The translations under genes were made by a program, and so were the position numbers. This document shows, one piece after another, positions 905 through 25,835 of a stretch of DNA of 64,000 nucleotides. A model generated the notes under the pieces. The model was not told where the DNA came from. It worked only from the letters and a program-made list of their open reading frames with translations, and did no database searches. The stretch is from positions 1 to 64,000 of the forward strand of contig NZ_UYYD01000001.1 in NCBI RefSeq assembly GCF_900625105.1. The letters run 5' to 3'. Within the stretch, counting starts at the first letter, position 1, and each line of letters begins with the position of its first letter. This stretch comes from Agathobaculum sp. Marseille-P7918 (GTDB lineage: Bacteria; Bacillota; Clostridia; Oscillospirales; Butyricicoccaceae).

Positions 905-3652
905 ATGACAGATGTGCAGCAGCGGGCGGCGGCAAAAGATTTTACAAAATATTGGACAGGCCGAGGGGACGAGAAACAGGAAACACAGCGTTTTTGGATT
1001 GACTTGCTGCGGAACGTCTACGGCGTGGAAGAACCGGAAAAAGCCATTGAATTCGAGTATCCCGTGAAGCTGGATCATGTCAGTTTTATTGATGGATATA
1101 TCCGGGAGACTCGTGTGCTTATTGAGCAAAAGGGCGCGGACATTGATCTGCGGCGGGGCTACAAACAGTCTGATGGTTCCATGCTGACACCCTATCAGCA
1201 GGCTCGTCGCTATGCAGGCTATCTGCCCCATGATATGAATCCACGTTGGATTGTGGTTTGCAATTTCCGTGAGTTTCATATCCACGATATGAACCGTCCG
1301 AATGACGAGCCGGAAGTAGTGGCACTGGACGATCTAGAGAAAGAATATCATCGCTTGAACTTTCTGATAGACACCGGGGACGAGAATATCAAAAAGGAGA
1401 TGGAGGTCTCCTTACAGGCCGGCGAAATCGTTGGCGTCCTGTATGATGCTCTCTTGAAGCAATACAAAGACCCGGAATCCCCGGAGACACTGAAAAGTCT
1501 GAACGCCCTGTGTGTTCGGCTGGTATTTTGTCTGTACGCCGAGGATGCGGAGATTTTCGGCGGTCATGGTAAATTTCACGACTATATGCAACGGCACCAG
1601 AGCGATGCCAGACGCGCCCTGATTGACTTGTTTCGGGTGCTGGATACAAAGCCGGAAGCCAGAGACCCCTATATGGACGACGATCTCGCCGCATTCCCCT
1701 ATGTCAACGGTGGTCTGTTTGCCGATGAGGATATCATTATCCCCCGGCTGGATGAAAACATCGTAGATCTGATTCTCCACCGGGCAAGCGAGGATTTCGA
1801 CTGGTCTTCCATTAGTCCCACCATCTTCGGTGCTGTGTTTGAAAGCACTTTGAACCCGGAGACCCGGCGCTCTGGAGGAATGCACTATACCAGTATTGAG
1901 AACATTCACAAGGTCATTGACCCGCTGTTTCTGGATGACTTAAAGGCTGAATTGAAGGAAATTCAAGAAATCGCTATCGAACGGACTCGAAAACTCAAGC
2001 TCAAAGCGTTTCAGGCCAAACTGGCTGGTCTAACCTTTCTCGACCCGGCTTGCGGTTCAGGCAATTTCCTGACAGAGACTTACTTATCTTTACGTCGATT
2101 AGAAAATAAAGTTCTGGCAGTGCTCAATTATGATCAGATAATATTGGATATGGACAATCCAATTCAGGTCTCTATTAGTCAGTTCTATGGCATCGAGATC
2201 AATGACTTTGCTGTGACAGTAGCCAAGACAGCATTGTGGATCGCGGAAAGCCAGATGATGAAAGAGACCGAGGACATCATGCACATGTCTCTGGACTTTC
2301 TTCCGCTGAAATCCTACGCGAATATTGTGGAGGGTAATGCCTTGCGGCTGGATTGGGAGAGCGTTGTTCCAAAGAATAAGCTGAATTACATTATGGGTAA
2401 CCCGCCGTTTGTTGGTTTCACCTATATGACCTCAGCACAAAAGGCAGATATGCAAACAGTTTTTCCTAAAACAAAAAATCTTGATTTTGTTTGTGGATGG
2501 TATAAGCGGGCTTCTGATTTTATTCATGGCACAGTAATTGAGTGCGGATTTGTTTCTACGAATTCTATTGCACAAGGCGAAACTGTTTCGGCATTATGGA
2601 AGTACCTGAATATTAAAATCAATTATGCATACCACACATTTATATGGGATAGTGAAGCAAAATTAAAGGCTCATGTTCACTGTGTTATCATTGGTTTTGC
2701 AGATTTCGACAGAAAAGTCAAGTGGATATTTCAGGGAAACAATAGGATTCAAGTAGAAAATATCAATGCGTATCTATGTGACGCGCCCAATATTATCGTT
2801 GCGAGTCGAAGTAAGCCATTGTGTAATGCCCCGGCAATGGTGTATGGAAACAAGCCAGCGGATGGTGGAAATTTGCTCATTGAAGATAGCGATTATAATG
2901 ATTTCATATGTAAAGACCCAGATTCAGCAAAGTTTATTCATCCATTATTAGGAGCATTTGAGTATCTACACAATAAGAAACGATGGTGCCTATGGTTGAA
3001 GGGTGTATCACCCGCTGAACTGCAAAAGTGTCCATTAGTAATGGAACGCATTAAACGTTGCAAAGAAACAAGGGAAAATAGCATTGCCGCTGGCATCCGA
3101 AAATTTGCTGATACTCCGATGCTATTTGCTCAAATAACCCAACCAGAGGGTGCAGATTATATTATCATTCCGCGAGTATCATCTGAACGCAGACGGTATG
3201 TGCCGATGGGATTCATGAGTGCAGAGACGATTGTTACGGATTTAGTTCAAATTGTTCCGAATGCTTCACTCTTCGAATTTGGTGTTCTAACCTCAAATGT
3301 ACATATGGCTTGGATGCGCGCTGTAAGTGGAAGATTAAAGAGCGATTATCGTTATTTAAAAGACATTGTCTACAATAATTTCCCTTGGCCCACGCCCACC
3401 GATGCTCAGAAGACTAAAATCGAGGAGACCGCCCAAGCCATTCTGGACGCTCGCGCCCTTTATCCAGACTCCAGCTTGGCTGATCTTTATGATGAGGCCA
3501 CCATGCCCCCGGAACTGCGCAAAGCCCATCAGCAGAACGATAAGGCCGTCATGCGCGCCTATGGTTTTGACATCAAAACCACCACCGAGACATCTTGCGT
3601 AGCGGAGCTGATGCGGATGTATCAAAAATTGACGGAAGAAAGCAAGAAATAG
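905..3652 (+). CDS. MmeI-like type IIG/IIL restriction-modification enzyme
   Basis: A single 915-residue polypeptide expected to combine DNA cleavage, N6-adenine methylation and target recognition. The N-terminal part has a PD-(D/E)XK-like site (D63, E74-Q-K76). The SAM-binding motif I FLDPACGSGNF is around residue 380, catalytic motif IV NPPF is at N499, and the C-terminal third should hold the target-recognition domain. I chose ATG 905 because GGGAGGA lies just upstream; an in-frame start at 857 has no such site. The gene is alone, with no separate R or S subunit and no BREX or DISARM partners. Bases 2430-3370 are much richer in A+T than the two ends of the gene, which suggests a swapped recognition segment. 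A solitary class I DNA methyltransferase is the alternative, but the EXK site argues for an active nuclease. Confidence 0.85.
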   Translation: MTDVQQRAAAKDFTKYWTGRGDEKQETQRFWIDLLRNVYGVEEPEKAIEFEYPVKLDHVSFIDGYIRETRVLIEQKGADIDLRRGYKQSDGSMLTPYQQARRYAGYLPHDMNPRWIVVCNFREFHIHDMNRPNDEPEVVALDDLEKEYHRLNFLIDTGDENIKKEMEVSLQAGEIVGVLYDALLKQYKDPESPETLKSLNALCVRLVFCLYAEDAEIFGGHGKFHDYMQRHQSDARRALIDLFRVLDTKPEARDPYMDDDLAAFPYVNGGLFADEDIIIPRLDENIVDLILHRASEDFDWSSISPTIFGAVFESTLNPETRRSGGMHYTSIENIHKVIDPLFLDDLKAELKEIQEIAIERTRKLKLKAFQAKLAGLTFLDPACGSGNFLTETYLSLRRLENKVLAVLNYDQIILDMDNPIQVSISQFYGIEINDFAVTVAKTALWIAESQMMKETEDIMHMSLDFLPLKSYANIVEGNALRLDWESVVPKNKLNYIMGNPPFVGFTYMTSAQKADMQTVFPKTKNLDFVCGWYKRASDFIHGTVIECGFVSTNSIAQGETVSALWKYLNIKINYAYHTFIWDSEAKLKAHVHCVIIGFADFDRKVKWIFQGNNRIQVENINAYLCDAPNIIVASRSKPLCNAPAMVYGNKPADGGNLLIEDSDYNDFICKDPDSAKFIHPLLGAFEYLHNKKRWCLWLKGVSPAELQKCPLVMERIKRCKETRENSIAAGIRKFADTPMLFAQITQPEGADYIIIPRVSSERRRYVPMGFMSAETIVTDLVQIVPNASLFEFGVLTSNVHMAWMRAVSGRLKSDYRYLKDIVYNNFPWPTPTDAQKTKIEETAQAILDARALYPDSSLADLYDEATMPPELRKAHQQNDKAVMRAYGFDIKTTTETSCVAELMRMYQKLTEESKK

Positions 3653-5657: not shown

Positions 5658-7289
<1,632 letters not shown>

Positions 7290-8102
7290 TCAAATATTTT
7301 GGCTTTTCTGCACATACTCCCGGTACTTATAGGCGATGATATCCGTAATTACCCCATACACTATGCGATGGGTACATAGGGAGCGGGTTTTCTGATAGCG
7401 AACACAATAGGCCACCCGTGGGTCATGCTCGATTTGCGGGTTGGAGGTGATGACAACTACCTTGGCGTGTGTGCGTGAAAAGGCGCGCTTGTTTGCAAAA
7501 TCATCGATTTGCTGATATTTATCCAGAAAGTCTCCCGAATCGCTGAATACGATAATCAGCACATCTTCTCCTGCATTTTGAATAAAATTGTCTTGCTTCA
7601 GGTCGTTGAGGTTAGTGACAATAAATTTTTTGTTGTAAGCCAGCTTGATCTGAAAATCCAATGCAGCCGTTTCGGAGAACATCAGGCCAAACGCGCCGAC
7701 CCGCTGATAGTGCGCCAAATCCCGCACCAGACGATCCCCCGCACTCCAGTCCAGAGAGCGGTAGGTTTCACCGATATCCTGTTGTACGGTGAGCATATAG
7801 GAGTCAAGGGAGGTATCCCGGATATAATCCATCACGTTCGTTACATAGTTAAACTGGTTGTGGTATTTGTTATCCAAAAATACCGATGCATCGCGGAAGT
7901 CGGCAAAGTCATCGTATCCAATATAGCGGATGAATTTGGAGATCGTGGATTTGGAAACCATACAGGCTGCCGCCAGTTCACTGATAGAGTAATGCTGTAG
8001 TGCATCAAAATTTTGCAGCATGACAACCGCAATGTGATAATAGGTGGAGTCCGCTTCTTCCTCGTTTAAGAGAATCAAAAGACGGTGGAAGAGCATACCC
8101 AT
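7290..8102 (-). CDS. MurR/RpiR family transcriptional regulator
   Basis: Sugar-phosphate-responsive DNA-binding protein of 270 residues. The N-terminal helix-turn-helix (about residues 1-77) contains the family-typical SISELAAACMVSKSTISKFI. The C-terminal SIS domain (about 105-245) binds the phosphosugar and includes the LIIVFSDSGD strand-loop. The ATG has GGAGGG upstream. It is encoded just upstream of, and in line with, the GH1 and EIIBCA genes, which it probably controls. Whether it activates or represses cannot be read from the sequence. Confidence 0.9.
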   Translation of the reverse strand: MGMLFHRLLILLNEEEADSTYYHIAVVMLQNFDALQHYSISELAAACMVSKSTISKFIRYIGYDDFADFRDASVFLDNKYHNQFNYVTNVMDYIRDTSLDSYMLTVQQDIGETYRSLDWSAGDRLVRDLAHYQRVGAFGLMFSETAALDFQIKLAYNKKFIVTNLNDLKQDNFIQNAGEDVLIIVFSDSGDFLDKYQQIDDFANKRAFSRTHAKVVVITSNPQIEHDPRVAYCVRYQKTRSLCTHRIVYGVITDIIAYKYREYVQKSQNI

Positions 8103-8606: not shown

Positions 8607-9467
8607 TTAGGAGGAGAGGCGTTGCGTTAGCGGCGGCTCTCCTGTTTTTAACTGGATGCGCTCGTGGTTATAAAAGTGAATGTATCGGTCAATCATCTCA
8701 TTGGCCTCGGAAAAGGTAGCAGGCTTGTGCCGGTAGATACACTCTGTTTTGCGGATAGAAAAGAAATTTTCCGCCATAGCGTTGTCATATGGATTTCCTC
8801 TTCTTGACATAGATGGTGTAATGCCGTATTGTTTAGTTAGGTTAAAGTACGCTTGGGAAGTATACTGAAACCCTTGGTCGCTGTGGAGCTGCAACTCCGC
8901 AGCGATCTTCTTTTTCTCCTGTTTCATAGCCAGACGAATGGTATCCAGAACCAGATTTACCGTCTGCCGGGTTCCGGTCTTGTAAGCCACAATGCTGTTG
9001 TCATAGAGGTCTCGGATCATAGACAGATACACGACACCCTGTTTGGTTTGAATATACGAAATATCCGTTACCCATTTCGAGTTTGGCCTTTGTGCGTGAA
9101 ATTGGCGGTTGAGCAAATTCGCGTATTTATGTACCTGTCGGCCCATCTGCTGCCATTTTCTGTGACGGCGGATTTTAGAAAGCAGATCATATTTCTTCAT
9201 AATACGTAAAATTGTTTTAGGATTACGGTAGATACCCTCATTGTTTTTCAGCCATTGCCACATCCTGCGATATCCATAGGTTTCAAAACACTTCCTTTGC
9301 TGCTGACTAATTTTTTCTATCAGTTCGGCATCTTTTACCGGCCTGCCCAAGCGACTTACGAAGCTATAGTAACCACTTCGTGATACGGCAAAGAAATCGC
9401 ACATAACGATTACTGGATATTCTGTTCGATGACGATAGATCACAGCGTATTTTACAGACGGCTTCAC
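8607..9467 (-). CDS. IS3-family transposase OrfB (DDE integrase domain)
   Basis: 286 residues with an rve-type catalytic core. The DDE residues are in WVTDISYI, LHSDQGFQYTS and NAMAENFF, with the 35-residue second spacing typical of IS3. The start is GTG 9465-9467 and overlaps the stop of orfA in a GTGA arrangement, so translation may be coupled; a fused OrfAB made by frameshifting is usual in this family but I did not pin down a slippery site. The N-terminus carries the HTH_21-like linker (CDFFAVSRSGYY). Confidence 0.93.
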   Translation of the reverse strand: MKPSVKYAVIYRHRTEYPVIVMCDFFAVSRSGYYSFVSRLGRPVKDAELIEKISQQQRKCFETYGYRRMWQWLKNNEGIYRNPKTILRIMKKYDLLSKIRRHRKWQQMGRQVHKYANLLNRQFHAQRPNSKWVTDISYIQTKQGVVYLSMIRDLYDNSIVAYKTGTRQTVNLVLDTIRLAMKQEKKKIAAELQLHSDQGFQYTSQAYFNLTKQYGITPSMSRRGNPYDNAMAENFFSIRKTECIYRHKPATFSEANEMIDRYIHFYNHERIQLKTGEPPLTQRLSS

Positions 9468-9926: not shown

Positions 9927-10757
9927 TTACAGCATGATGCGCGTCATGTGGATGGTCAGGTAGATCAGTTCTTCGCGTGGGATATCGACCTGTAGGTTGC
10001 GCTGCATATAGCCTGCGATGCGCTTGGCACAGGCATAGGCCTGCGGGTTCTGTTCCAGCACCGGCTCGAGCACCTGAATATCCTCGCCTTTGAGCATCTT
10101 GCCGTCGAGCACACGCTCGATGAAGAACTGCATGTGCGTCAAAAAGCGTGAATAATGGATAGAGTTCTCGTCGATTGTCCGGCCAAAAGACATTTGGATG
10201 ATGCCGTACATGTCCTTGAGCATGCGCATGGCCTGCATGGTGCGCTCCATATCCGGGTTTTCGGTCTGCGCGTTGACCAGATGGAAGGCGATGTTTCCTG
10301 CTTCTTCGGGCGGCAGCTCGATATCCAGCCGCTCGTTCAGCAGCGCGCGGATCTGCTGACCGGTTGCGAACTCCTTGGGGTAAAACCGCTGCACCTCCCA
10401 CAGCAGCCGGTTGGGCAGCACGATATGCTTGCGGCAGCGCTCGACCGCGTAGACCAGATGGTCGAATAGCGTCACGAACAGCTGGTCGCTCAGCTTGCCG
10501 GGGAACTGCTCATAGGCCAGCTGCAAGGCATCTTCGAGTGTTTCGGCAAAGGTATCCGGAATCTCCTGCAGCAGCTGCATATATCGCTGTGCGGAGCTCT
10601 CGTCCTGCAGCACGAACACCTTTTGAATTTGTTCCTGCCGCAGCTCTTCGCCCACCTGATTGAGAAAGCGCAGGCCCTTGCCCATGACGATCTGCTCGCG
10701 CCCGTTTTCGTCCGCTGCAAGCAGCAGATTGTTGTTAAGGATCTTGCGCACGATCAT
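9927..10757 (-). CDS. licT: LicT/BglG-family transcription antiterminator
   Basis: 276 residues. The N-terminal CAT RNA-binding domain (about 1-58, beginning MIVRKILNNNLLLA) binds an RAT hairpin. Two PTS-regulation domains follow (about 66-170 and 171-276) with conserved histidines phosphorylated by HPr and the cognate EII. ATG 10755-10757 has AGGAGAG upstream. It is the last gene of the PTS-GH1-licT operon and should act on the RAT at 14215-14242, so it controls its own synthesis. Its downstream terminator is interrupted by the IS element. Confidence 0.93.
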   Translation of the reverse strand: MIVRKILNNNLLLAADENGREQIVMGKGLRFLNQVGEELRQEQIQKVFVLQDESSAQRYMQLLQEIPDTFAETLEDALQLAYEQFPGKLSDQLFVTLFDHLVYAVERCRKHIVLPNRLLWEVQRFYPKEFATGQQIRALLNERLDIELPPEEAGNIAFHLVNAQTENPDMERTMQAMRMLKDMYGIIQMSFGRTIDENSIHYSRFLTHMQFFIERVLDGKMLKGEDIQVLEPVLEQNPQAYACAKRIAGYMQRNLQVDIPREELIYLTIHMTRIML

Positions 10758-10799
10758 ACCGTTATCTCTCCTACCTGAGAAGTTTCTCTGCTTTCTATT

Positions 10800-14100
<3,301 letters not shown>

Positions 14101-14167
14101 AAGGAACCCCTTTCTTTGTGGTGCAGAGCCGTCCGGTCCGCTGCGCGCGATACGGTTCAAACGGCAC

Positions 14168-14220
14168 AAAAAAAGACCACAACAAAAAATCATCCAGAAG
14201 ATGATCCTTTGCGTGGTCTT
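14168..14220 (-). terminator. LicT-controlled leader terminator
   Basis: On the minus strand, AAGACCAC pairs with GTGGTCTT and is followed by seven U residues, just before the EIIBCA ribosome site. Its 5' arm overlaps the end of the RAT hairpin, so the two folds exclude each other, as in the known bgl/lic/sac antitermination switches. Confidence 0.88.
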
Positions 14221-14242
14221 GCCTGCATTACCAGTAACAGCC
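14215..14242 (-). promoter_or_regulatory. RAT antiterminator site for LicT
   Basis: Minus strand reads GGCTGTTACTG, five variable bases, then GCAGGCAAGACC, which matches the ribonucleic antiterminator consensus of the BglG/LicT family. It lies in the leader of the PTS-GH1-licT operon and overlaps the terminator arm. Confidence 0.9.
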
Positions 14243-14260
14243 ATTCAATTGACTGAAATT

Positions 14261-15548: not shown

Positions 15549-16496
15549 ATGAAATGGAGATGGCTGCTTCTCGCGTTGTGCGGTGTGGTGTTGACGGTGT
15601 GGCTCTGTCTGACGCTGGGCGCATGGGGCGGGCAGCAGGAGGAGCCGCTGCGCATCGGCGCGACGTACATGACGATGAACAACCCGTTTTACAGCGTCAT
15701 TGACGAAGAACTTCGGCTGATGATCGAAAGCCGCGGCGATATTCTGCTGACGCGCGACCCGGCGCTCGATCAGGACAAGCAGAACGACCAGATCCATGAG
15801 CTGCTTTCCGACGGAATCGATCTGCTGGTGATCAACCCGGTGGATTATCAGCAGATCCGCCCGGCTTTGGAAGAGGCGCGCGCGGCAGGTGTGCCGGTTG
15901 TGATCGTGGATTCGCAGGTCAGCGATCCCACACTGGTAGCCTGTACGATCGCGTCGGACAATTATGGCGCGGGCGTATTGTGTGCCGAGCATCTGATGCG
16001 CACGCGGGATGCGGCGTGCATCGCGCTGCTCGAGCATCCGGCCGCGCAGTCGGGCGTGGACCGCATTCAGGGGTTTTGCGATACGATCGCCGGCCATCCG
16101 CAGTATCAGATTGCCGGCCGCGCGAGCAGTGACGGCCAGCTGGAACTGGCCATGCCGGCACTCGACGGCCTGCTGGACAGCAACCCGGCGATTGATGTGG
16201 TCATGGCGCTCAACGATCCCACGGCGCTGGGCGCGATGGCGGCGCTGGAGGAACGGCATCTGCTCGACCGGACGCTGGTTTACGGTGTGGATGGCGCGCC
16301 GGAAGCGAAAAACATGATTTTTGAAGGTGCCATGACGGCGACGGTTGCCCAGTCGCCCATTCAGATCGGCCAGACCACGGCGCAGGTGATCTATCAGATC
16401 CTGTCCGGTGAGCCGTACGAGACCGAAATCATTGTGCCGGTCGAACTGATCACGGCGGAGAACGTCAGCCAGTTCGGCGCGGACGGCTGGCAGTAA
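15549..16496 (+). CDS. RbsB-like sugar-binding protein, membrane-anchored
   Basis: 315 residues. One N-terminal hydrophobic segment (about residues 3-27, no lipobox Cys and no clear cleavage site) is followed by a type-1 periplasmic binding fold: LRIGATYMTMNNPFYSVIDEEL, then the D-G-I-D-L-L-V-I-N-P strand and PVVIVDSQV. It should bind a monosaccharide outside the membrane. No ABC permease or ATPase is nearby; instead the gene starts a coupled operon with a histidine kinase and a response regulator. It therefore probably presents sugar to the kinase rather than to a transporter, as XylFII does for LytS in clostridia. Ligand unknown. Confidence 0.85.
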   Translation: MKWRWLLLALCGVVLTVWLCLTLGAWGGQQEEPLRIGATYMTMNNPFYSVIDEELRLMIESRGDILLTRDPALDQDKQNDQIHELLSDGIDLLVINPVDYQQIRPALEEARAAGVPVVIVDSQVSDPTLVACTIASDNYGAGVLCAEHLMRTRDAACIALLEHPAAQSGVDRIQGFCDTIAGHPQYQIAGRASSDGQLELAMPALDGLLDSNPAIDVVMALNDPTALGAMAALEERHLLDRTLVYGVDGAPEAKNMIFEGAMTATVAQSPIQIGQTTAQVIYQILSGEPYETEIIVPVELITAENVSQFGADGWQ

Positions 16497-16510
16497 AGGG
16501 GGAAGGCACC

Positions 16511-17818
16511 ATGCAAAAGGACGAGAGCCTGACCCTGCTGCGGCAGGTGATGCTGCTGATCAATCTGGCGCTGTGCGCGTTTATCAGTGCCGTGTTTGTG
16601 CTGACCCCGCTGCGTGCGGCGCAGCGGGCGGAAGGCGTACATTTCTTGCAGGGACTGAGCAGCCTGCCCGCCGCACCGTGGAGCGTCGCCTTTGCGGCGA
16701 TGGGCTTTGCCGCATTTGTGATGATCGACCTGCTTTGCCGGCGCGGCAAGCTGGGCAGCGGTCGGCCGGCGCTGTGGCTGGAACCGGCCTTTGCGCTGCT
16801 CGTGATTCTGGCGCTGCATTTGGACTATAACGGGCTGCTGCTGCTTGCGGTGGTCAACTTGGTCGATCGCCTGCGCGGCCGCGGACGGATGCGCTTTCTC
16901 GCGGCGATGACCTCGCTCTATCTGCTGACCAGTCTGGATGTGCTCCGGTCGGGGTTGGGCATGGTTTCCGTGTCCGAATATCTGGCCTATTACGAGGGGC
17001 AGCCGCGTCAGCTGATGCAGTCGGCGATCGGCTTGCTCAGCGCGCTCAACCTGATCCTGTTTCTCGGGTATATGGTCATTCTGGTCGGACGGCGGACGGA
17101 AGAGAACGCCGCCATCCGCCGGTTGAATGGCGAACTGGAACGGGCGAACGAGAAACTGTCCGTTCTTAATGTCCAGCTGAAAAACTATGCCGCAGAAAGC
17201 GAGCGTATGGCGGAGACCCGCGAGCGCAACCGCCTGGCGCGCGAAATCCACGATACGCTCGGCCATGCGCTGACCGGTATCACCGCCGGGGCGGACGCCT
17301 GCATCGAGATGATGGATATTTCGCCCGATATGGCGCGCAAACAGATGGAATTGATTGCGAAAACCGCCCGCGCGGGCATGAACGAGGTGCGCCGTTCGGT
17401 CAGCGCGCTGCGCCCGGACGCGCTGGAGCGTTTCCGCCTGTCCGAGGCGCTGGCCAAGCTGTGCAGCGAGATGCAGCAGACCTCACATGCCGAGATTCGG
17501 CTGGACATGCAGCAGACCGATCTGCGCCTGTCGCAGGACGAAGAGGATGCGGTGTACCGAATCGTGCAGGAAAGCGTGACAAACGCCATCCGGCACGGGC
17601 ATGCGACCGAAATCAATGTGTGCCTGTCCTGTCAGGAGCGCCGCATGTCGATCGTGGTGCAGGATAACGGCATCGGCTGCGCGAAGATTGAGCAGGGCTT
17701 CGGATTGCGGCATATGCGCGAGCGGCTGCGGCTGCTCGGCGGCAGCCTGCGCGTGGACGGAACCAACGGCTTTCGGATTGAGGCCGATATACCGCTTCGA
17801 TGGGGGGATGAAGTATGA
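16511..17818 (+). CDS. NarL-type sensor histidine kinase (multi-TM)
   Basis: 435 residues. Six hydrophobic segments in about 1-195 leave only short loops, so there is no sizeable extracellular sensor domain. A coiled coil (about 198-235) leads into a HisKA_3 dimerisation domain with phospho-acceptor H247 in LAREIHDTLGHALTG. A HATPase_c follows with N-box VQESVTNAIRHGHA and G-box DNGIGC plus GFGLRHMRERL. The gene starts 15 bases after the binding-protein gene and its stop overlaps the regulator start (ATGA). The missing sensor domain fits a kinase that reads ligand through the neighbouring binding proteins. Confidence 0.92.
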   Translation: MQKDESLTLLRQVMLLINLALCAFISAVFVLTPLRAAQRAEGVHFLQGLSSLPAAPWSVAFAAMGFAAFVMIDLLCRRGKLGSGRPALWLEPAFALLVILALHLDYNGLLLLAVVNLVDRLRGRGRMRFLAAMTSLYLLTSLDVLRSGLGMVSVSEYLAYYEGQPRQLMQSAIGLLSALNLILFLGYMVILVGRRTEENAAIRRLNGELERANEKLSVLNVQLKNYAAESERMAETRERNRLAREIHDTLGHALTGITAGADACIEMMDISPDMARKQMELIAKTARAGMNEVRRSVSALRPDALERFRLSEALAKLCSEMQQTSHAEIRLDMQQTDLRLSQDEEDAVYRIVQESVTNAIRHGHATEINVCLSCQERRMSIVVQDNGIGCAKIEQGFGLRHMRERLRLLGGSLRVDGTNGFRIEADIPLRWGDEV

Positions 17819-18492
17819 TCCGCGTATTGATTGCAGACGATCAGGAGCTGATTCGTCAAAGTTTGAGCTTTGTGCTGGATGCGCAGGCGGATATCGAGAT
17901 GGTGGGCACCGCGTCCAATGGGCGCGAAGCGATTGAACTGGTGCGCAAGGAAAAACCGGATGTCGTGCTCATGGATATCCGTATGCCGGAGGTGGACGGT
18001 GTGGAGTGCACGCGGCTGATCAAGGCCGCTCATCCGGAGATCAAGGTTATCATTCTGACGACCTTTGACGATGACGAATATGTGTTCGGCGCGCTGCGCT
18101 ACGGCGCGTCCGGCTATCTGCTCAAGGGCGTTTCGGTCAAGGAACTGGCCAATGCCGTGCGCGAGGTGGTGCGCGGCGGGTCGATCATCATGCCGGGCGT
18201 GGCGTCCAAGGCGCTGGAAATGTTTGCGCGCATGGCGCGCGGCAGCATGCAGATCCCGGTTAACGCCAAGCAGACGGACGAGCTGCAGGAAAACGAATGG
18301 CGTGTGATCCGTGAGGTCGGCTGCGGAAAATCCAACAAGGAGATCGCGGCGGCGCTCTGTCTGTCGGAAGGTACCGTGCGCAATTATCTGAGCAGTGCAC
18401 TGAGCAAGCTCGACCTGCGCGACCGCACGCAGCTGGCCATCTGGGCGGTGCAGACCGGGGTAGCGGCCAACCCCTATGGAGACAAGCCATGA
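17815..18492 (+). CDS. LuxR/NarL-family response regulator
   Basis: 225 residues. The receiver domain (1-120) has acidic residues D8 and D9, phospho-acceptor D54 in VVLMDIRMP and a Lys in GYLLKG. The C-terminal helix-turn-helix (about 155-215) contains GKSNKEIAAALCLSEGTVRNYLS. It overlaps the kinase stop by 4 bases, and its own stop overlaps the start of the second binding protein. Probable target: the PTS operon starting at 20010, which has a weak -35 and repeated TGTCA sites upstream. That link is inferred. Confidence 0.93.
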   Translation: MIRVLIADDQELIRQSLSFVLDAQADIEMVGTASNGREAIELVRKEKPDVVLMDIRMPEVDGVECTRLIKAAHPEIKVIILTTFDDDEYVFGALRYGASGYLLKGVSVKELANAVREVVRGGSIIMPGVASKALEMFARMARGSMQIPVNAKQTDELQENEWRVIREVGCGKSNKEIAAALCLSEGTVRNYLSSALSKLDLRDRTQLAIWAVQTGVAANPYGDKP

Positions 18493-19793
18493 TGAGGGCG
18501 GTCAAACGGCTGACGGGCGGGGGGCTGCTGGCGGCGCTGGTGCTCGCCGTCACAGTGTTCGGCTCCTCGCGGGAAACCGTGATCACGGTCGGCGTGATTG
18601 CCGGCAGCTACTGGGATGCCCCGACGGGCAACTGCTATGCGGTGATAGATGACGCGATTGCCCGGTTTGAACAGGCGCACCCCAATGTGCGTGTGGAATA
18701 CACCAGCGGTATCCTCAAACGGGACTATTCCGAATGGCTGGCGGATCAATATCTGCTGGGCAAAGAGCCTGATGTTTTTCTGGTAATGCCAGAGGATTTC
18801 GGCATGCTGGCGGAGCTTGGCGCGCTGCAGCCGCTGGACAGTCTGCTGCAAAACGACGGCGCCGTGTCCGAGGCGGATTTTTATCCGGCGGCGCTGGAAA
18901 GCGGCGTGTCCGGCGGCGTACAGTACGCGCTGCCGTATGAATGTGTGCCCACGCTCATGTTTGTCAACAAGACGCTGCTCGAGGCGGAGGGCATCCCCGT
19001 GCCGGACAGCGACTGGACGTGGGAGGATTTCTATGCGATCTGCGCCAAAGTTACGCGGGATACCGATGGCGACGGCACGATCGACCGCTTCGGCAGCTAT
19101 GGCTACACCTGGCGGGACGCGTTGGTGTCCAACGGCGCGGCGCTGTTCGACGAAAACGGCAGCCGATGCCTGATTGCGGAGCCGTCCTCGGTGGAGGCGG
19201 TGGAATTTGCGCAAAAGCTCGAACAGCTTTATGTGGACTGCGATATCACCGCGCGCAGTTTTGACGAAGGAAATGTCGCGTTCCGGCCGTTTCTGTTTTC
19301 CGATTATCGGACCTATCAGCCGTATCCTTGGCGCATCAAGCGGTATTCCGGCTTTGAGTGGGACTGCATCCCCATGCCGGGCGGGCCGTCCGGGTCCGGT
19401 CGGTCCGAGCTGAGCACCGTGCTGGCGGCGATCAGCAGCCGTTCCTCCCAGCAGGCGCTGGCGTGGGAGCTGCTCAAAGAGCTGACCTGCTCGGACGAGA
19501 CGCAGGAGATGCTGTACACCGATTCGCATGGCGTGTCCGCGCTGCGGCGCGTCACGCAGTCGCCGCAGACCCAGCGGATCTTGCAGCAGGATACGCCGGG
19601 CGACAGTCAGCTCGGGCTCGAGATTCTGTCGGATGTCATGGAGCAGGCGGTCACAGCGCCGCATTTCCGGTCGTATGATCAGACGCTGCTGCTCGCGGAA
19701 AGTCTGGTGGCAACCGCGATGGAGGACGACCATAATCTGGCGCTTCAGCTGCAGCGCGTGCAGCGTGAGCTGGAGGAATATTTGCAAAATTAA
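18489..19793 (+). CDS. Extracellular solute-binding protein, MalE-like
   Basis: 434 residues with an N-terminal hydrophobic segment (about 8-26) but no lipobox Cys, so it is either membrane-anchored or secreted. The mature part has the type-2 binding fold of ABC carbohydrate-binding proteins (VDSLLQNDG-like domain start, PYECVPTLMFVNKTLLEAEGI, DWTWEDFYAIC). It is translationally coupled to the response regulator and ends the operon before a strong terminator. No cognate permease or ATPase is encoded in the window. With the RbsB-like protein this gives two unrelated binding proteins around one two-component system. Confidence 0.88.
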   Translation: MMRAVKRLTGGGLLAALVLAVTVFGSSRETVITVGVIAGSYWDAPTGNCYAVIDDAIARFEQAHPNVRVEYTSGILKRDYSEWLADQYLLGKEPDVFLVMPEDFGMLAELGALQPLDSLLQNDGAVSEADFYPAALESGVSGGVQYALPYECVPTLMFVNKTLLEAEGIPVPDSDWTWEDFYAICAKVTRDTDGDGTIDRFGSYGYTWRDALVSNGAALFDENGSRCLIAEPSSVEAVEFAQKLEQLYVDCDITARSFDEGNVAFRPFLFSDYRTYQPYPWRIKRYSGFEWDCIPMPGGPSGSGRSELSTVLAAISSRSSQQALAWELLKELTCSDETQEMLYTDSHGVSALRRVTQSPQTQRILQQDTPGDSQLGLEILSDVMEQAVTAPHFRSYDQTLLLAESLVATAMEDDHNLALQLQRVQRELEEYLQN

Positions 19794-19821
19794 ATCCGAT
19801 CTTTTGGGTTAAACCCCGATC

Positions 19822-19869
19822 AGCCGGTTCCGGCTTTGGCAATGTGTCAAAACCGGAACCGGCTTTTTT
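19822..19869 (+). terminator. Terminator of the sensing operon
   Basis: Arms AGCCGGTTCCGG and CCGGAACCGGCT, followed by a run of T. It separates the sensing operon from the PTS operon. Confidence 0.9.
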
Positions 19870-19888
19870 GCATTTTTGGACAAAGCAA

Positions 19889-19937
19889 ATGACATTTGTC
19901 ATGTAAAACAGGATAAGTGTCATCTGACATTCGTGAC
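19889..19937 (+). promoter_or_regulatory. Candidate operator upstream of the mannose-family PTS operon
   Basis: Two inverted repeats built on the same half-site, ATGACA-TT-TGTCAT (19889-19902) and TGTCA-TC-TGACA (19918-19929), lie 28 bases apart centre to centre. A third half-site GTGACA follows at about 19933-19938. A possible -10 TAAAAT is at 19970-19975 with no good -35, which would suit an activator. Response regulator 17815-18492 is the nearest candidate. Confidence 0.5.
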
Positions 19938-20009
19938 AAAGTGCAGATGTAAATTGATGGCTCGATTGGTAAAATTGACTCAACAAAAACGAGAAAGGGG
20001 AAACACAAC

Positions 20010-20435
20010 ATGAGATATCTGATTTTGGTCAGCCACGGCACCTTCGCACCGGGCCTGCACAACGCGGTGGGCATGATGGCCGGCGCAGACCGCAAGGATA
20101 TCCGCTCGACCAGCCTGCTGGACGGTATGGATGTGGACACCTACCGCAAGGCGTTTGCCGAACTGGTTGCCGATGTCACGGAAGAGGATGAGATCCTGCT
20201 GTTTGCCGACATCATCGGCGGCTCACCGCTGACGACCGCGATGGAGGTGCTGACCGAAAAAGGCCTGCTGCCGCACACGGCTGCCATCGGCGGCATGAAC
20301 CTGCCGCTGGTACTGACTGCTGCCTTTGCGGACGCGGACGCACCGCTCGAGCAGGTTGCAGCCGAAATCATGGAAGAGGGCCGCGGACAGCTCAAGCCGT
20401 TTGCGCTGGACGGCGGCGACGAAGACGAGATCTGA
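20010..20435 (+). CDS. PTS mannose-family subunit EIIA
   Basis: 141-residue cytoplasmic phosphocarrier. H9 in LILVSHGTFAPGL is the residue expected to take phosphate from HPr, and FADIIGGSPLTTAME is a family signature. ATG with GAAAGGGG upstream. First gene of the EIIA-EIIB-EIIC-EIID operon; here IIA and IIB are separate proteins rather than the fused IIAB of E. coli ManX. Confidence 0.93.
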   Translation: MRYLILVSHGTFAPGLHNAVGMMAGADRKDIRSTSLLDGMDVDTYRKAFAELVADVTEEDEILLFADIIGGSPLTTAMEVLTEKGLLPHTAAIGGMNLPLVLTAAFADADAPLEQVAAEIMEEGRGQLKPFALDGGDEDEI

Positions 20436-20470
20436 GGATAATTTGCAGCACGGAATAAGGAGGAAATCAT

Positions 20471-20965
20471 ATGTCTATTTCATTTATTCGCGTAGATGAC
20501 CGCATGATTCATGGTCAGACCTGCACCCGCTGGGCGCTGGAATATCCCTGCGACGGCCTGATCGCCGTCAACGATAAGGCAGCCAAGACGCCGGTACTCA
20601 AGGCAGCGTACAAGAACGCCAGCGACAAAAAGACCTTCGTCTGGACGCTCGACGAGTGGCGCGCCAAGTGCGGCAAGGTGCTGGCCAGCAAGGACCGTTA
20701 TTTCCTGATCACCAAGGACCCGATCACGATGAAGAAGATCCTCGTCGATGACGGCTTTGATCCCGGCGAGGTCAAGACGGTCATCATCGGGCCGTGCAAC
20801 GACCGTGAGGGCGCGGTCAAGCTGGGCAACAACCAGTCCATCACGCAGGAAGAGGCGGACGCACTCGAGGCGATCATGCAGAAGGGCTACGAAGTGGAAT
20901 TTGCCCTGATTAAAGAAGCCGCCATTGGCAACTGGAGAAAATTCCGCGGCCAGTTCGGCTATTGA
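20471..20965 (+). CDS. PTS mannose/fructose/sorbose subunit EIIB
   Basis: 164-residue cytoplasmic subunit. The active His is H14 in IRVDDRMIHGQ, the family signature. It passes phosphate from EIIA to the sugar during transport through EIIC/EIID. Ribosome site AAGGAGG. Normal length for the family. The sugar cannot be read: mannose, fructose, sorbose and N-acetylgalactosamine members all look alike at this level. Confidence 0.94.
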   Translation: MSISFIRVDDRMIHGQTCTRWALEYPCDGLIAVNDKAAKTPVLKAAYKNASDKKTFVWTLDEWRAKCGKVLASKDRYFLITKDPITMKKILVDDGFDPGEVKTVIIGPCNDREGAVKLGNNQSITQEEADALEAIMQKGYEVEFALIKEAAIGNWRKFRGQFGY

Positions 20966-21043
20966 TCGTATCCAAAGGCTGCCTTGTGCGGCTTTGTGAT
21001 AACAACAAAAGGGGTTTTATCAGAAAGGTAAGGTGAAGGATTT

Positions 21044-21904
21044 ATGGAAATCCAGGTATGGCAGGCAGCATTGTTCGGCTTGTTCGCCTGTTTGGCGTCC
21101 ATGCCCGGCCTTGGCGGCACGGTATTCGGCAACTACACCTTGGGCCGTCCGTTGGTCGCAGGTTTGGTAGTCGGCCTGATCATGGGTGATGTGCAGACCG
21201 GTATCTATCTGGGCGCAGCCATTCAGGTTGTTTACATCGCGCTGGTCACGCCCGGCGGCACGGTATCCGCGGACGTACGCGCCATTTCTTACATCGGCAT
21301 CCCGCTGTCCATCGTTGCGGTGCACGGCATGGGCCTGAGCCCGGCGTCGCCGGAAGGACAGGCAATGGCAGTCACCCTCGGTTCTGCGGTTGGTACGCTC
21401 GGCACGGTGCTGTTCTACGGCACGGCAACCGTCAACCTCGTCTGGCAGCACATGGGCTGGCGCGCGCTGGAAAAGGGTAATCTGCGCAAGCTCTATCTGG
21501 TCGATATGGGGCTGCCGTGGATCTCGCACATCCTGTGCTCGTTTATCCCGACGTTCATCATCACCAAGGTCGGCGTCAACATGGTTGACCTGATGAAGGC
21601 GTATCTGCCGATGGACGGCATCGCTATGAAAACGCTGTTTACGGTCGGCTCGCTCCTCCCGGCAGTCGGTATTGCGATCCTGCTCAAGCAGGTGGCGACC
21701 AAGCCGGTCGATCTGTTGACCTTCCTGTTCGGCTTTACGCTGGCGGCCTGCATGGGTCTGAACCTGATCGCGGCGTCGGTCGTCGGCGGTTTCTTCGCGG
21801 TCATCAATTACCGCATCAAGCTGCTGAGCATGCAGAAGGCTGCGCCCGCTGCCGCGTCTGACGCCGGCACGGACGAATTCGACGATGACGAGGAGGAGAT
21901 TTGA
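21044..21904 (+). CDS. PTS mannose-family subunit EIIC
   Basis: 286-residue membrane protein with seven to eight hydrophobic segments and the EIIC-sorbose signature PLVAGLVVGLIMGDVQTGIYLGAAIQ. Together with EIID it forms the sugar channel. The acidic C-terminal tail (DEFDDDEEEI) is unusual but harmless. Its stop lies just before the EIID start and the tail codons also provide the EIID ribosome site AGGAGGAG. Confidence 0.93.
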   Translation: MEIQVWQAALFGLFACLASMPGLGGTVFGNYTLGRPLVAGLVVGLIMGDVQTGIYLGAAIQVVYIALVTPGGTVSADVRAISYIGIPLSIVAVHGMGLSPASPEGQAMAVTLGSAVGTLGTVLFYGTATVNLVWQHMGWRALEKGNLRKLYLVDMGLPWISHILCSFIPTFIITKVGVNMVDLMKAYLPMDGIAMKTLFTVGSLLPAVGIAILLKQVATKPVDLLTFLFGFTLAACMGLNLIAASVVGGFFAVINYRIKLLSMQKAAPAAASDAGTDEFDDDEEEI

Positions 21905-21906
21905 CC

Positions 21907-22728
21907 ATGGCTGAAAAGAAGCTTTCCAAAAAGGCGCTTGCGAAATCCTTCCGCAACTGGTATTACGGCCATCTGACCTGCTTCTCGCAGGAGCACATGC
22001 AGACGTTCGGCTACCTGTGCGCCATGCTCCCGCTGGTAGAGGAGCTGTATGACACCAAGGAGGAGCAGAAGGAAGCCCTCCAGACCTATTCCGCATTCTT
22101 CAACACCGAGCCGCAGCTCGGCACGGTGATCGTCGGCATGACCGCAGGCCTCGAGGAGGCCAAGGCCAACGGCGAAGAGATCGACGGCGAAATGATCAAC
22201 GGTATCCGCGCCGGCCTGATGGGCCCGGTTGCCGGTATCGGCGACAGCCTGCTGGTCGGTACGCTCATTCCGATCCTGCTGGGCGTGGCGCTCGGCATGT
22301 CGTCCGGCGGCTCGCCGCTCGGCGCGATCTTCTACATCATTGTTTACAATCTGGTGCTGACGCTCGGCATGCGCTTTTTGTACTACAAGGGCTACGAACT
22401 GGGCGGCAAGGCGGTTGAGCTGATCGTCGGCGAGAAGGCAAACGCCATCCGCGAGTCGGTCATCATGCTGGGCACCATCGTCATCGGCGCGGTTGCCGCA
22501 ACCTGGATTTCGATCACGACGCCTCTGGTCCTGCCCGGCGACATCGCCTTGCAGACCGGTGTACTTGATACGATCTTCCCCAAGATCCTGCCGCTGGCTG
22601 CCGTCATGTTCTGCTACTGGCTGATGAGCAAAAAGAAAATGGCGCCGACGACCGTTATGCTCATTCTGGTCGGCGTGGCGCTGATCGGCGTGCTGCTCGG
22701 CTTCTTTGATCCGCAGCTGAGCTACTAA
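21907..22728 (+). CDS. PTS mannose-family subunit EIID
   Basis: 273-residue membrane partner of EIIC with the family segments FRNWYYGHLTCFSQEHMQ and GPVAGIGDSLLVGTLIPILLG. I chose ATG 21907 because AGGAGGAG is 9-16 bases upstream; an in-frame TTG at 21901 would sit too close to it. C-terminal hydrophobic segments end at LLGFFDPQLSY. Confidence 0.93.
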   Translation: MAEKKLSKKALAKSFRNWYYGHLTCFSQEHMQTFGYLCAMLPLVEELYDTKEEQKEALQTYSAFFNTEPQLGTVIVGMTAGLEEAKANGEEIDGEMINGIRAGLMGPVAGIGDSLLVGTLIPILLGVALGMSSGGSPLGAIFYIIVYNLVLTLGMRFLYYKGYELGGKAVELIVGEKANAIRESVIMLGTIVIGAVAATWISITTPLVLPGDIALQTGVLDTIFPKILPLAAVMFCYWLMSKKKMAPTTVMLILVGVALIGVLLGFFDPQLSY

Positions 22729-22757
22729 GACAAAGATTTGGAAAGGAGTTTTCGCAG

Positions 22758-23042
22758 ATGAAAACCAAACTGAGTAAGAAAACGCTGCTTTTGGAAGCCC
22801 AGCAGCAAAAGGACGCGCTGAAACGGCTGCAAGGCTGGCTCAGGAATGCGATGCTCCTTTCCTCGTGCGCTGCGGTGCTGGCCTGGTGGGGCCTGAGCGG
22901 AGGCGGACTCCGCCTGGCCTGCGGCGTGGCGGGCATCGTACTGGCAGCGGTCAGCGTGGCCTGTGCCGCCCTGATCGGGCTGGGCATCCACAACGGCCGC
23001 CGCAATGTGGACCACATCCTAAAGGCGGTGGAGCAGGCATGA
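22758..23042 (+). CDS. Small two-TM membrane protein of the PTS operon
   Basis: 94 residues, not recognised. A basic amphipathic N-terminus (about 1-28) is followed by two hydrophobic helices (about 30-48 and 52-76) and a short polar tail. Ribosome site GGAAAGGAG. Its stop overlaps the start of the first HAD phosphatase (ATGA), so it belongs to the operon. A role in assembling or tuning the EIIC/EIID complex is only a guess. Confidence 0.75.
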   Translation: MKTKLSKKTLLLEAQQQKDALKRLQGWLRNAMLLSSCAAVLAWWGLSGGGLRLACGVAGIVLAAVSVACAALIGLGIHNGRRNVDHILKAVEQA

Positions 23043-23860
23043 GCAAGACCGGCAGCACAGCGTTTCCCCTTCGCCTGTTGTGTCTGGATATTGACGGAAC
23101 CCTGCTCGACACCGCGCATCAGCTGCCGCCCGAAAACCGGGCGGCAGTGCGGTTTGCGGCGGACAGAGGGATATGCATTTGCCTGCTGTCCGCCCGGCCG
23201 CCGCAGGCAATCGCGCCGATTGCGCATGCGCTGGGCGTGCCGGGGCCGGTGGCGAGCTTCGGCGGGGCGCTGATTGAACAAGGAGATAAGCGCATTTTCG
23301 ACCGCAGACTGCCCGTGGATACGGCGCGGACGGTGATCGATCTGGCGCGCAAGCAGGACATTTCGCTCAGCCTGTACCGCGACACCGCTTGGTGTGTCGA
23401 GCGGGAGGACGGATGGAGCCTGCGGGAAAGCGCGATCACCGGGCTGCGTCCGACGGCGCTGCCGCTTGTGCAGGCGCTGGCAGAGGGCGCGCCGCACAAG
23501 CTGCTGTGCATGGGCGAGGCGGCGCAGATCGACCGGTTTGACCGAACCTTACAGCAGCGGATGCCGGAAGCTGAACTGCTCCGCTCCAAGGACGAATATC
23601 TGGAGATCATGCCGCGGCAGGCGGGCAAGGCGGAAGCGCTGCTGACGATGTGCCAGTATCTTGGCATTGCACCGGCGCAGGCTATGGCGATCGGTGATCA
23701 CGATATCGACTGCGCGCTGCTGCGTGCGGCGGGCGTCGGCGTGGCGATGGGCAACGGCTCGGACGCCGCGCGGAAGGCGGCCGACTGGATCGCGCCGGAC
23801 AACGACCACGCGGGCGTGGCGGCCGCGGTGTATCATTGGATCGGGGAGGGAGACAAATGA
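23039..23860 (+). CDS. Cof-type HAD-IIB sugar phosphatase (first)
   Basis: 273-residue cytoplasmic hydrolase. Motif I is LCLDIDGTLLDT with the nucleophile Asp, motif II is in CLLSARPP, and the motif IV region reads AIGDHDIDCALL; the large C2 cap lies between. It probably dephosphorylates sugar phosphates produced by the PTS. Start ATG 23039 overlaps the previous stop, and its own stop overlaps the start of the second phosphatase. Motif IV has GDHDID rather than the usual GDxxND, so metal binding relies on the second Asp. Confidence 0.88.
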   Translation: MSKTGSTAFPLRLLCLDIDGTLLDTAHQLPPENRAAVRFAADRGICICLLSARPPQAIAPIAHALGVPGPVASFGGALIEQGDKRIFDRRLPVDTARTVIDLARKQDISLSLYRDTAWCVEREDGWSLRESAITGLRPTALPLVQALAEGAPHKLLCMGEAAQIDRFDRTLQQRMPEAELLRSKDEYLEIMPRQAGKAEALLTMCQYLGIAPAQAMAIGDHDIDCALLRAAGVGVAMGNGSDAARKAADWIAPDNDHAGVAAAVYHWIGEGDK

Positions 23861-24663
23861 AATATCGTTTGCTTGCGCTCGACTTGGACGGCACGCTGCT
23901 CAATTCCCAAAAGGAGATCACGCCCGAAACGCGCAAAGCGCTTGCGTGGGCCAAGGCGCGCGGCGTTTATGTGGTGCTGTCCACCGGCCGCATCGTGGGC
24001 GAGGCCGCGGAGTTTGCCCGCGAGATCGCCTGCGAGGACAAGATGGTCACTGCGGGCGGCGCGGCGATCGCCACAGCGTCAGACGAGCGCATTCTGGAAA
24101 GCTGGGCGATGCCCTGCGAGATCGGTGCGCAGGCGGTCGCGGCGGTGCAGGATCTGCCCGTGCGCGTGATGATTTATGTGGGCGACAAAATCTATATCAA
24201 CCCGTTTTCCGACCGCGATTTTGTGCAGAACTATCGCGTCGAAGGGTTTCACGCCAACAAGGTCGTGCTGGACGATATTGCGGGCGCAATCCGGGCGCGC
24301 GGGCTGGATGTGACCAAGGTGTATGCAATCGGGGAGCGTGCCGATCTGGACAAGGCGCTCGAGACCATCCGCCTGCTACCGGGCATCACGATCACCAGCT
24401 CGGGCAGCGATAATTTCGAAGTCATGCCGGCGGGCGTGGACAAGGGAAGGGCACTGATTCGTCTGGGTGAAATGCTCGGCGTGGCACCCGAGGAAATGGT
24501 CGCCATTGGCGACAGCGACAATGACGCGGCCATGCTGCGCGCGGTCGGCATGCCGGTGGCGATGGGCAACGCCGACCCGGCGCTCAAAACTGTGGCGAAG
24601 TATGTCACAGCCGACTGTGACCACGACGGCGTGGCACAGGCAGTGTATCATCTTTTTTCATAA
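23857..24663 (+). CDS. Cof-type HAD-IIB sugar phosphatase (second)
   Basis: 268 residues. Motif I LALDLDGTLLNSQ, motif II VVLSTGRI, conserved Lys in AGVDKGRAL and motif IV AIGDSDNDAAML are all canonical. It is coupled to the upstream phosphatase by an ATGA overlap. Two related HAD-IIB enzymes in a row after a mannose-type PTS suggest dephosphorylation of the imported sugar phosphate or relief of sugar-phosphate stress; the substrate is unknown. Confidence 0.92.
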   Translation: MKYRLLALDLDGTLLNSQKEITPETRKALAWAKARGVYVVLSTGRIVGEAAEFAREIACEDKMVTAGGAAIATASDERILESWAMPCEIGAQAVAAVQDLPVRVMIYVGDKIYINPFSDRDFVQNYRVEGFHANKVVLDDIAGAIRARGLDVTKVYAIGERADLDKALETIRLLPGITITSSGSDNFEVMPAGVDKGRALIRLGEMLGVAPEEMVAIGDSDNDAAMLRAVGMPVAMGNADPALKTVAKYVTADCDHDGVAQAVYHLFS

Positions 24664-24929: not shown

Positions 24930-25835
24930 ATGGCGCAGACCGATCTGCATATGCATTCTTCCGTCAGCGCGGATGGAGAGATCTCGCCGCGCGGACTGGC
25001 GGAGCTGTGCTGTCAGGAGGGCGTGACGCTGGCGGCGCTGACCGATCACAATGATGTTGCGGGATCGGCGGAATTTATCTGGCGCTGTGCGCAGCTGGGG
25101 GTGCAGGCGATTCCCGGCGTGGAACTGGACTGCCTGCATCAGGCAACCCATCTGCATCTGCTCGGCTACGGCATTGATATTGCCAGCCCGCGTTTGCAGC
25201 ATACGATACAGGAGGTGCGCGGCCTGCAAATCGAGGCAGGGCTGCGCCTGATGGACGCCGTGGCGGCGCTTGGCATTCGGTTTCAGCGGGATCAGGTGCT
25301 GGAACTGGCGGGAGACGGCGCGGTATGCGCGGAAACGATCGCGCAGTCCGCGCTGCAACTGCCGGAAAACCGCGCGCATCCGCTGATCCGTCCGCTGTTG
25401 CCGGGCGGGAAGCTGGCCGACCGTCCACTGGCCAATTTCTATTGGTCGGTCTGTGCACCGGGCAAACCGGCAGCCGTGTCGGTTGATTTTATGACGGCAG
25501 CGCAGGCCGTCTGCCTGATCCATGAGGCGGGCGGGATCGCGGTGCTGGCACATCCGGGCGCCAGCATGTCGGACGAAGAGGCGCTGGACGAGGTGCTCGC
25601 CCTGCCGCTGGACGGCGTGGAAGCGTTCAGCAGCTATCACACCGCAGAGCAGGCAGCGCTTTATCGGCAGAAAGCGGTGGAGCGCAACCTGTTGCTCACA
25701 GGCGGCAGCGATTTCCACGGCAGAAGCAAACCGGATGTGCGCTTGGGCGCGATCGATTGGCAGGGATGCGAAAACGAGGCGTGCTCTACGCTGCTCGCTG
25801 CGCTGGCGCAGCTGCGGCAGAACAAGCCGTCATAA
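24930..25835 (+). CDS. PHP-domain phosphoesterase
   Basis: 301 residues. The metal-binding motifs of the PHP family are present: DLHMHSSVSADG near the start, LTDHND at about 40, GVELD at about 65, VLAHPGA at about 205 and GGSDFHG at about 258. The closest known activities are 3',5'-nucleoside bisphosphate phosphatase (RNase AM) and related phosphoesterases. Ribosome site GGGGGG. Last gene before the terminator; whether it belongs to the PTS operon functionally is unclear. Confidence 0.88.
   Translation: MAQTDLHMHSSVSADGEISPRGLAELCCQEGVTLAALTDHNDVAGSAEFIWRCAQLGVQAIPGVELDCLHQATHLHLLGYGIDIASPRLQHTIQEVRGLQIEAGLRLMDAVAALGIRFQRDQVLELAGDGAVCAETIAQSALQLPENRAHPLIRPLLPGGKLADRPLANFYWSVCAPGKPAAVSVDFMTAAQAVCLIHEAGGIAVLAHPGASMSDEEALDEVLALPLDGVEAFSSYHTAEQAALYRQKAVERNLLLTGGSDFHGRSKPDVRLGAIDWQGCENEACSTLLAALAQLRQNKPS

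Follow-up and report, generated by a model that had tools for sequence, protein, structure and literature searches.

A probable LevQRST-type four-component sugar sensor with its own mannose-family PTS and a predicted operator dyad in Agathobaculum

What do two sugar-binding proteins of different fold do when they are encoded together with a histidine kinase and a response regulator, and directly ahead of a phosphotransferase system (PTS)? The question is raised by a cluster in the first 64,000 nucleotides of contig NZ_UYYD01000001.1 of Agathobaculum sp. Marseille-P7918 (RefSeq assembly GCF_900625105.1; this whole stretch is called the window hereafter), in which four sensor genes (15549-19793) are followed by a mannose-family IIA-IID operon (20010-22728), all on the forward (+) strand. 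Judging from sequence, we consider it very probable (roughly 0.86) that the cluster is a clostridial four-component sensor of the type known as LevQRST in Streptococcus mutans, with its own LevDEFGX-type PTS and a hexose signal of one class. It would thus be an ordinary member of a known four-component family, whose architecture has already been published (LevQRST), within which we make a new operator prediction.

A first-pass annotation, made from the letters of the window and its open reading frames (ORFs), had recognized the four sensor genes, and all of them lie where it placed them, in the order that it gave and with strong Pfam matches. The gene for an RbsB-fold binding protein (PBP1, LevQ-like; 15549-16496; Peripla_BP_4, E = 1.3e-46) is separated by 14 bp from that for a LevS-like histidine kinase (16511-17818; HisKA_3, E = 5.3e-20, plus HATPase_c), which overlaps by 4 bp the gene for a LevR-like response regulator of the NarL/LuxR family (17815-18492; Response_reg plus GerE), which in turn overlaps by 4 bp the gene for a MalE-fold binding protein (SBP, LevT-like; 18489-19793; SBP_bac_1, E = 4.3e-25); the genes are indeed overlapping or nearly so. 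The PTS operon encodes IIA (LevD-like; 20010-20435; EIIA-man, E = 2.8e-24), IIB (LevE-like; 20471-20965; PTSIIB_sorb, E = 5.2e-33), IIC (LevF-like; 21044-21904; EII-Sor, E = 4.7e-60) and IID (LevG-like; 21901-22728; EIID-AGA, E = 2.2e-87). It is complete and followed by two HAD phosphatase genes (23039-23860, Hydrolase_3, E = 1.3e-52; and 23836-24663, Cof-type, TIGR00099, E = 4.9e-55, with a start perhaps at the internal ATG 23857), as the annotation had it. Two features had gone unmentioned there. One is a small gene in the levX position, between IID and the HAD genes (22758-23042), for a membrane protein of 94 residues that belongs to no Pfam or NCBIfam family and is weakly matched (23-30% identity) by some Lactobacillales loci; the other is a terminator-like hairpin in T-rich DNA after the sensor operon (19822-19864; -32.8 kcal/mol for the fold of 19815-19880). 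Because of this hairpin between SBP and IIA, the like of which, with its T-run, is visible by eye at the same place in relatives, the sensor genes and the PTS are probably transcribed separately. The 14 window ORFs (9.9 to 25.8 kb) run against Pfam include no ABC permease or ATPase, in agreement with the annotation, and an Rfam scan of the window at the gathering score returned no family.

PBP1 and SBP each carry one N-terminal hydrophobic, presumably transmembrane (TM), segment (6-24 in PBP1) and no lipobox. Among the 14 other Peripla_BP_4 proteins of the genome, sorted by pattern and by eye, seven begin with a LacI-type DNA-binding domain and seven are exported, all seven with a lipobox. Since the segments of PBP1 and SBP lack a lipobox, unlike these seven exported RbsB-type proteins, both are probably tethered sensors. 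The kinase had been described as having six TM helices and no sensor domain: Pfam recognizes no sensor domain in it, and six helices are possible, hydropathy placing four above threshold in the window protein and 4-7 in full-length relatives. Pfam likewise detects no LytS-type membrane domain, only HisKA_3 and HATPase_c-type domains, and in the regulator it finds Response_reg and GerE, overlapped by a sub-threshold Sigma70_r4 match, and neither PRD nor sigma-54 interaction domains.

The arrangement is conserved well beyond the window. In an order-level sample of 394 genomes, PBP1 had homologues in 11 genomes at E<=1e-40 and SBP in 13 at E<=1e-20, and at strict limits picked afterwards (E<=1e-93 for PBP1, E<=1e-100 for SBP) strong homologues of the two occurred in the identical 10 of the 394 genomes. 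The four genes are close to an IIA-IID operon in all 10, with PBP1 inverted in one (G005) and about 2 kb between SBP and IIA in another (G044), and this order-wide co-occurrence of PBP1, SBP and the PTS rules out a chance neighbourhood. Among 398 genomes drawn from the phylum, SBP matched in 10 at E<=1e-40; it has a Lev-type PTS beside it in five (G000, G048, G583, G657 and G700) and a different mannose-family PTS, with no adjacent IIA, in three (G745, G633 and G680, about 4.5 kb beyond SBP in the last), while the other two have an ABC operon (G430) or neither PTS nor ABC genes in the stretch fetched (G439). A streptococcus-like genus yielded PBP1 matches at E<=1e-30 in 126 of 247 genomes, the weakest of which (30-34% identity) are probably ordinary RbsB proteins. 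A plasmid search with the SBP of a relative gave no match.

A set of 56 loci, consisting of the window and 55 loci fetched by similarity to PBP1, the kinase or SBP and including many close relatives, holds all four genes in 53 cases, 46 of them with a Lev-type IIA. Because the loci were fetched by similarity, the four-gene linkage is partly built into these counts; the linkage to the PTS and the dyad described below are not. Linkage of the four genes to a PTS is kept in most loci, across orders and classes, and the order PBP1-kinase-regulator-SBP followed by IIA-IIB-IIC-IID, often with the small membrane gene, recurs among Oscillospirales relatives as well as streptococcus-like genomes. The kinase led to six named loci, from Agathobaculum and Butyricicoccus, and in a kinase tree of 28 rows the window falls within a set of nine family members. 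Identities to nine Lactobacillales loci, presumed streptococcal and lactobacillar relatives, are 38-48% for PBP1, 30-36% for the kinase, 55-59% for the regulator, 33-44% for SBP, 36-46% for IIA and 56-70% for IIB, IIC and IID. ORF starts in the relatives are the first possible ones and some are too long (for example in L045, L047, L051, L053, L055 and L109). Translations of the streptococcus-like loci, read by eye, show GroEL, GroES and single-strand binding protein in the flanks, which we take to be the surroundings of the S. mutans lev locus as well. That the binding proteins feed the kinase and regulator and that the PTS is the target, as first proposed, is thus supported by the linkage across orders and classes, by the missing lipobox and by a conserved dyad.

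This dyad emerged from an alignment of the upstream regions of 11 same-family loci, in which a conserved block has the core ATGACA-N2-TGTCAT at 19889-19902, inside the region 19880-19940 that had been named for regulator binding. The 14-bp sequence, ATGACATTTGTCAT, contains the only perfect TGACANNTGTCA in the 2.83-Mb assembly (one occurrence of the 12-mer, none of a reversed control pattern), and we predict it to be the operator of the LevR-like regulator, a prediction that is new in clostridia. An imperfect second copy with two mismatches lies 21 bp after the first (19910-19923); taken alone it is within the chance range in the window, and its conserved feature is its position. The same alignment shows a conserved TGACAAA...CAGATG box (19934-19949) adjoining the presumed promoter. 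Near the IIA start, defined as 450 bp upstream to 75 bp inside the listed start, TGACA-N2-TGTCA was present in all 46 loci with four genes and IIA (43 perfect, three with one mismatch). The pattern occurs 56 times in the 1.01 Mb of the 56 loci, in 48 of them, and ranks first of 1024 palindromes of the same form; the next two are T-rich (35 and 32 occurrences), and the best-ranked other palindrome with an identical base composition occurs five times. Our literature search, which did not cover the motif itself and left subscription journals largely outside, returned nothing on this dyad in clostridia.

Because the assembly has one perfect dyad, the predicted target in this genome is the PTS operon alone. 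Four one-mismatch copies of the 14-mer lie elsewhere in the genome, one just before a small helix-turn-helix-like ORF (L192) and three within ORFs or adjoining them, on one strand or the other; once placed against the ORFs, none made a convincing second target. A fructanase target in this genome was likewise looked for and rejected, the sole glycoside hydrolase family 32 (GH32) gene being distant and without a perfect dyad. Among relatives, a dyad stands about 182 bp before an LPXTG-anchored, GH32 fructanase-like gene in L166 and 139 bp before a homologue of that gene, identified by blastp, in L229; both are in line with the dyad requirement of fruA in S. mutans as given in the accessible part of its description (PMC9241797). 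Within 500 bp ahead of their GH32 genes, L110 and L115 have copies with one mismatch at best, and ahead of the GH32/PTS pair of L048 there is no copy. As for autoregulation, the 350 bp upstream of PBP1 hold no dyad at up to two mismatches in five of six loci tested and one weak match in the sixth (L086). In L115, L116 and L118, IIA and PBP1 are divergent and the dyad sits in the gap between them, from where it could serve both.

Gene content, homology, synteny, the N-terminal hydrophobic segments without lipobox and the conserved dyad are what we observe directly, and the circuit that we propose would run from the cell surface to the PTS promoter. PBP1 and SBP would be tethered outside the membrane, would no longer serve any ABC transporter, and would both sense one class of extracellular hexose, most likely fructose, mannose or a close relative. 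Once loaded, they would signal through their own TM helices and those of the kinase to its cytosolic core, which would phosphorylate the NarL-type regulator. The regulator would then bind the predicted dyad at 19889-19902 and the second copy 21 bp on, and thereby activate the PTS operon from IIA onward; the PTS would import and phosphorylate the sugar, and the co-located HAD phosphatases may act on the resulting sugar phosphates.

Several observations weigh against this LevQRST-type circuit, or limit it. The linkage of the four genes to the PTS, which the first-pass annotation had proposed to look for in relatives, is there, with a Lev-type IIA, in 46 of the 53 four-gene loci; the other seven have no Lev-type IIA. 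The identities given above were measured to presumed streptococcal and lactobacillar relatives. PBP1 itself speaks partly for the circuit: its D121, R172 and Q268 are invariant across the 26 aligned sequences, N222 as well as D248 is kept in at least 90% of them, and all five align with positions of ribose-binding protein that we presume to contact the sugar; an arginine and two phenylalanines of that protein, however, are replaced by Ser, Val and Tyr in the PBP1 pocket. Since the presumed contacts are kept and these three residues are changed, PBP1 probably still binds a sugar, perhaps with another specificity. A cysteine fingerprint of S. mutans, taken from the accessible part of PMC3043104, was unmatched among the PBP1 homologues examined, which represent part of the 126 matching genomes. 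No dyad was found upstream of PBP1 in the window, no GH32 gene was seen near the cluster, and the only GH32 gene of the genome, which has no perfect dyad, is about 344 kb from the cluster, further along its contig, in what appears by eye to be a fructokinase/LacI-type locus. Sixteen relatives hold 1-9 perfect dyads each, 59 in total (0-3 for the reversed control), of which 18 lie in the fetched lev loci and 41 outside; of 20 outside dyads that were read, most stand beside genes without an evident lev link, one is upstream of the GH32-like gene of L229 and one inside such a gene in L218. At position 3907 of L228 the dyad stands beside genes for an unrelated kinase and an apparent ABC transporter, so that related NarL-type regulators may share the half-site.

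Other explanations share parts of this evidence. In the version of the first-pass annotation, PBP1 and SBP read two different extracellular sugars and the kinase integrates them, and the two folds are indeed unrelated by family: PBP1 resembles ribose-binding proteins, and the closest match of SBP is an arabino-oligosaccharide-binding protein (6rjy, E = 7e-29). We nevertheless regard this as improbable and unsupported: the 10 genomes (of 394) with a strong homologue of one protein are also the 10 with a strong homologue of the other, and in the part of the S. mutans account available LevQ and LevT work jointly on one pair of inducers, the response to fructose and mannose disappearing without LevQ and being weaker without LevT (PMC3043104). 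It is very hard to believe that PBP1 and SBP mainly are transport proteins of a distant ABC system with the kinase pair as a chance neighbour: the RbsA/RbsC operon behind the module in L084 would suit that idea, as would lipobox-like strings, set within a longer hydrophobic stretch, in PBP1 of L048, L049 and L055 and in SBP of L110 and L118, yet the four genes are linked in 53 of 56 loci (fetched, as said, by similarity to these genes), and the comparison of the window PBP1 with the seven lipobox-bearing proteins of the genome led us to judge an ABC-transport role unlikely. A relative of LevQRST that responds mainly to a mannoside or some other hexose derivative, and not to fructose, is somewhat unlikely; the GH32 observations above point that way, as do the two extra HAD phosphatases and the genes upstream of PBP1 in L045 (below), whereas flanks that differ between relatives argue against it.

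The LevQRST-type sensor is not tied to one transporter in all relatives. Besides the Lev-type PTS of 46 of the 53 four-gene loci, the couplings include a different mannose-family PTS without adjacent IIA in one family, f60 (L081, L083 and L085), and an RbsABC-type ABC operon in L084, with a perfect dyad 110-190 bp ahead of the first transport gene in all four. Lev-type PTS genes are found on both sides of the midpoint root of the kinase tree, and one clade of f60 seems to have had its Lev-type PTS replaced (L079 versus L081, L083 and L085); L080, also from f60, falls in a different part of the tree. In L084 (4248-13018), RbsA/RbsC genes and an FGGY sugar kinase gene stand behind the module, the dyad lying between SBP and the ABC operon, and here ABC permeases, which the first-pass annotation had taken as a sign against its reading, do stand beside the homologues. 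Only 0.4 kb of contig precedes the kinase in L084, so a LevQ may lie beyond the contig end, and the RbsB-like gene that was taken as PBP1 may instead belong to the transporter. We tentatively propose, at slightly less than even odds, that sensor genes and dyad make up a portable cassette, and that in Bacillota this cassette has come to be paired with more than one kind of transporter; in L084 a sensor made of ABC binding proteins would then be back in control of an ABC importer, and the window's genome would hold a dedicated one-target circuit. Modules beside another PTS or an ABC operon are in any case a new aspect of the family.

Gene arrangement varies as well. PBP1 is turned round relative to the kinase in two related genomes (L043, 8346-9293; L044, 8430-9407), where the inverted repeats around it are short (about 11-13 bp) and a search for long ones found none. 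The sensor genes and the PTS are transcribed divergently in L115-L118. Genome G028 carries the four genes twice, and the second copy (L050, 7356-11658) has a perfect dyad after SBP, with no PTS gene found behind it. The flanks are not conserved, with GH1/PTS genes in the window, GH32 in L048, L110 and L115, and a GH32 fragment in L051. Near a contig end, at 11481-12224 of L051, one ORF joins the middle of a GH32 protein to the end of a Peripla_BP_4 protein and would be a chimera, a remnant or an assembly fault. Directly upstream of PBP1 in L045 (12671-19938) lie genes for a glycerate kinase, a phosphomannose isomerase-ROK fusion, a GH38 mannosidase and a PTS IIB, which may resemble a mannosylglycerate locus. 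In the window, a gene for a PHP-domain protein (24930-25835; + strand; PF02811) follows the HAD genes and is beside the cluster only in same-family loci. Upstream, the window holds an MmeI-type restriction-modification enzyme (857-3652) and, on the other strand, a GH1 gene with an RpiR-type regulator (5658-8102), a transposase-like integrase (8607-9467) and an antiterminator with PRD domains, another GH1 and a IIBCA PTS (9927-14244).

A system studied in oral streptococci is hereby extended to relatives of Agathobaculum and Butyricicoccus. With a concrete predicted operator and a single predicted target, binding of the regulator and the inducing sugar become directly testable, and the conserved dyad offers a starting point for tracing the regulon in other cassette-bearing genomes, where not every copy belongs to it.

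Among known systems, Bacillus LevR, a PRD/sigma-54-type activator of lev operons, has the same name and a similar levDEFG-type PTS, but the regulator described here is a receiver-GerE protein of the NarL type. The clostridial XylFII-LytS, in which an ABC-type binding protein signals through a kinase, had been cited as the precedent for the window, and the likeness between binding protein and kinase stands; XylFII-LytS has one binding protein only, whereas the window has two and a HisKA_3 kinase not of the LytS type, and the closer precedent of LevQRST/levDEFGX had been missed. AraPST of Geobacillus joins a sugar-binding protein to a two-component system, and both AraPST and CuaD have three components and are linked with ABC transport or the utilization of polysaccharides rather than with a PTS. 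CuaD belongs to a system of Ruminiclostridium cellulolyticum that likewise combines a sugar-binding protein with a two-component system, according to the available part of its description (PMC10384115).

In S. mutans, as far as the accessible account goes, fruA and the neighbouring levDEFG PTS are under the control of two binding proteins, a kinase and a response regulator; efficient activation of fruA and levD requires the full set of four, fructose and mannose are the inducers, and purified LevR binds both promoters in vitro (PMC3043104). The same partial source predicts a TM anchor for LevQ and up to five TM helices for LevS, notes that no ABC transporter is encoded nearby, and lists similar operons elsewhere, including Clostridium acetobutylicum and Dorea longicatena; its genetics make LevQ essential and the determinant of specificity, with LevT tuning the response and the signal passing through the TM helices of the kinase (PMC3043104). 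The target operon is named levDEFGX in the part of PMC10900908 available, and a 14-bp dyad at -72 to -59, probably bound by LevR, is required by fruA according to the portion of PMC9241797 available. The window differs in its two HAD phosphatase genes after the PTS and in its predicted target: LevR also controls fruA in S. mutans, whereas here the PTS operon would be the only target, and the GH32 gene has no nearby dyad, unlike fruA. It shares with LevQRST/LevDEFGX, as far as these sources describe them, the parts and their order: two exported sugar-binding proteins of different fold clustered with a kinase/regulator pair, with N-terminal TM segments and no ABC gene among the scanned neighbours; a kinase with several TM helices, no Pfam sensor family and little extracellular part; adjacent IIA-IIB-IIC-IID genes in levDEFG order with a small fifth gene in the place of levX, to which its similarity is weak; and, upstream of the target, a 14-bp dyad, required in S. 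mutans and conserved here.

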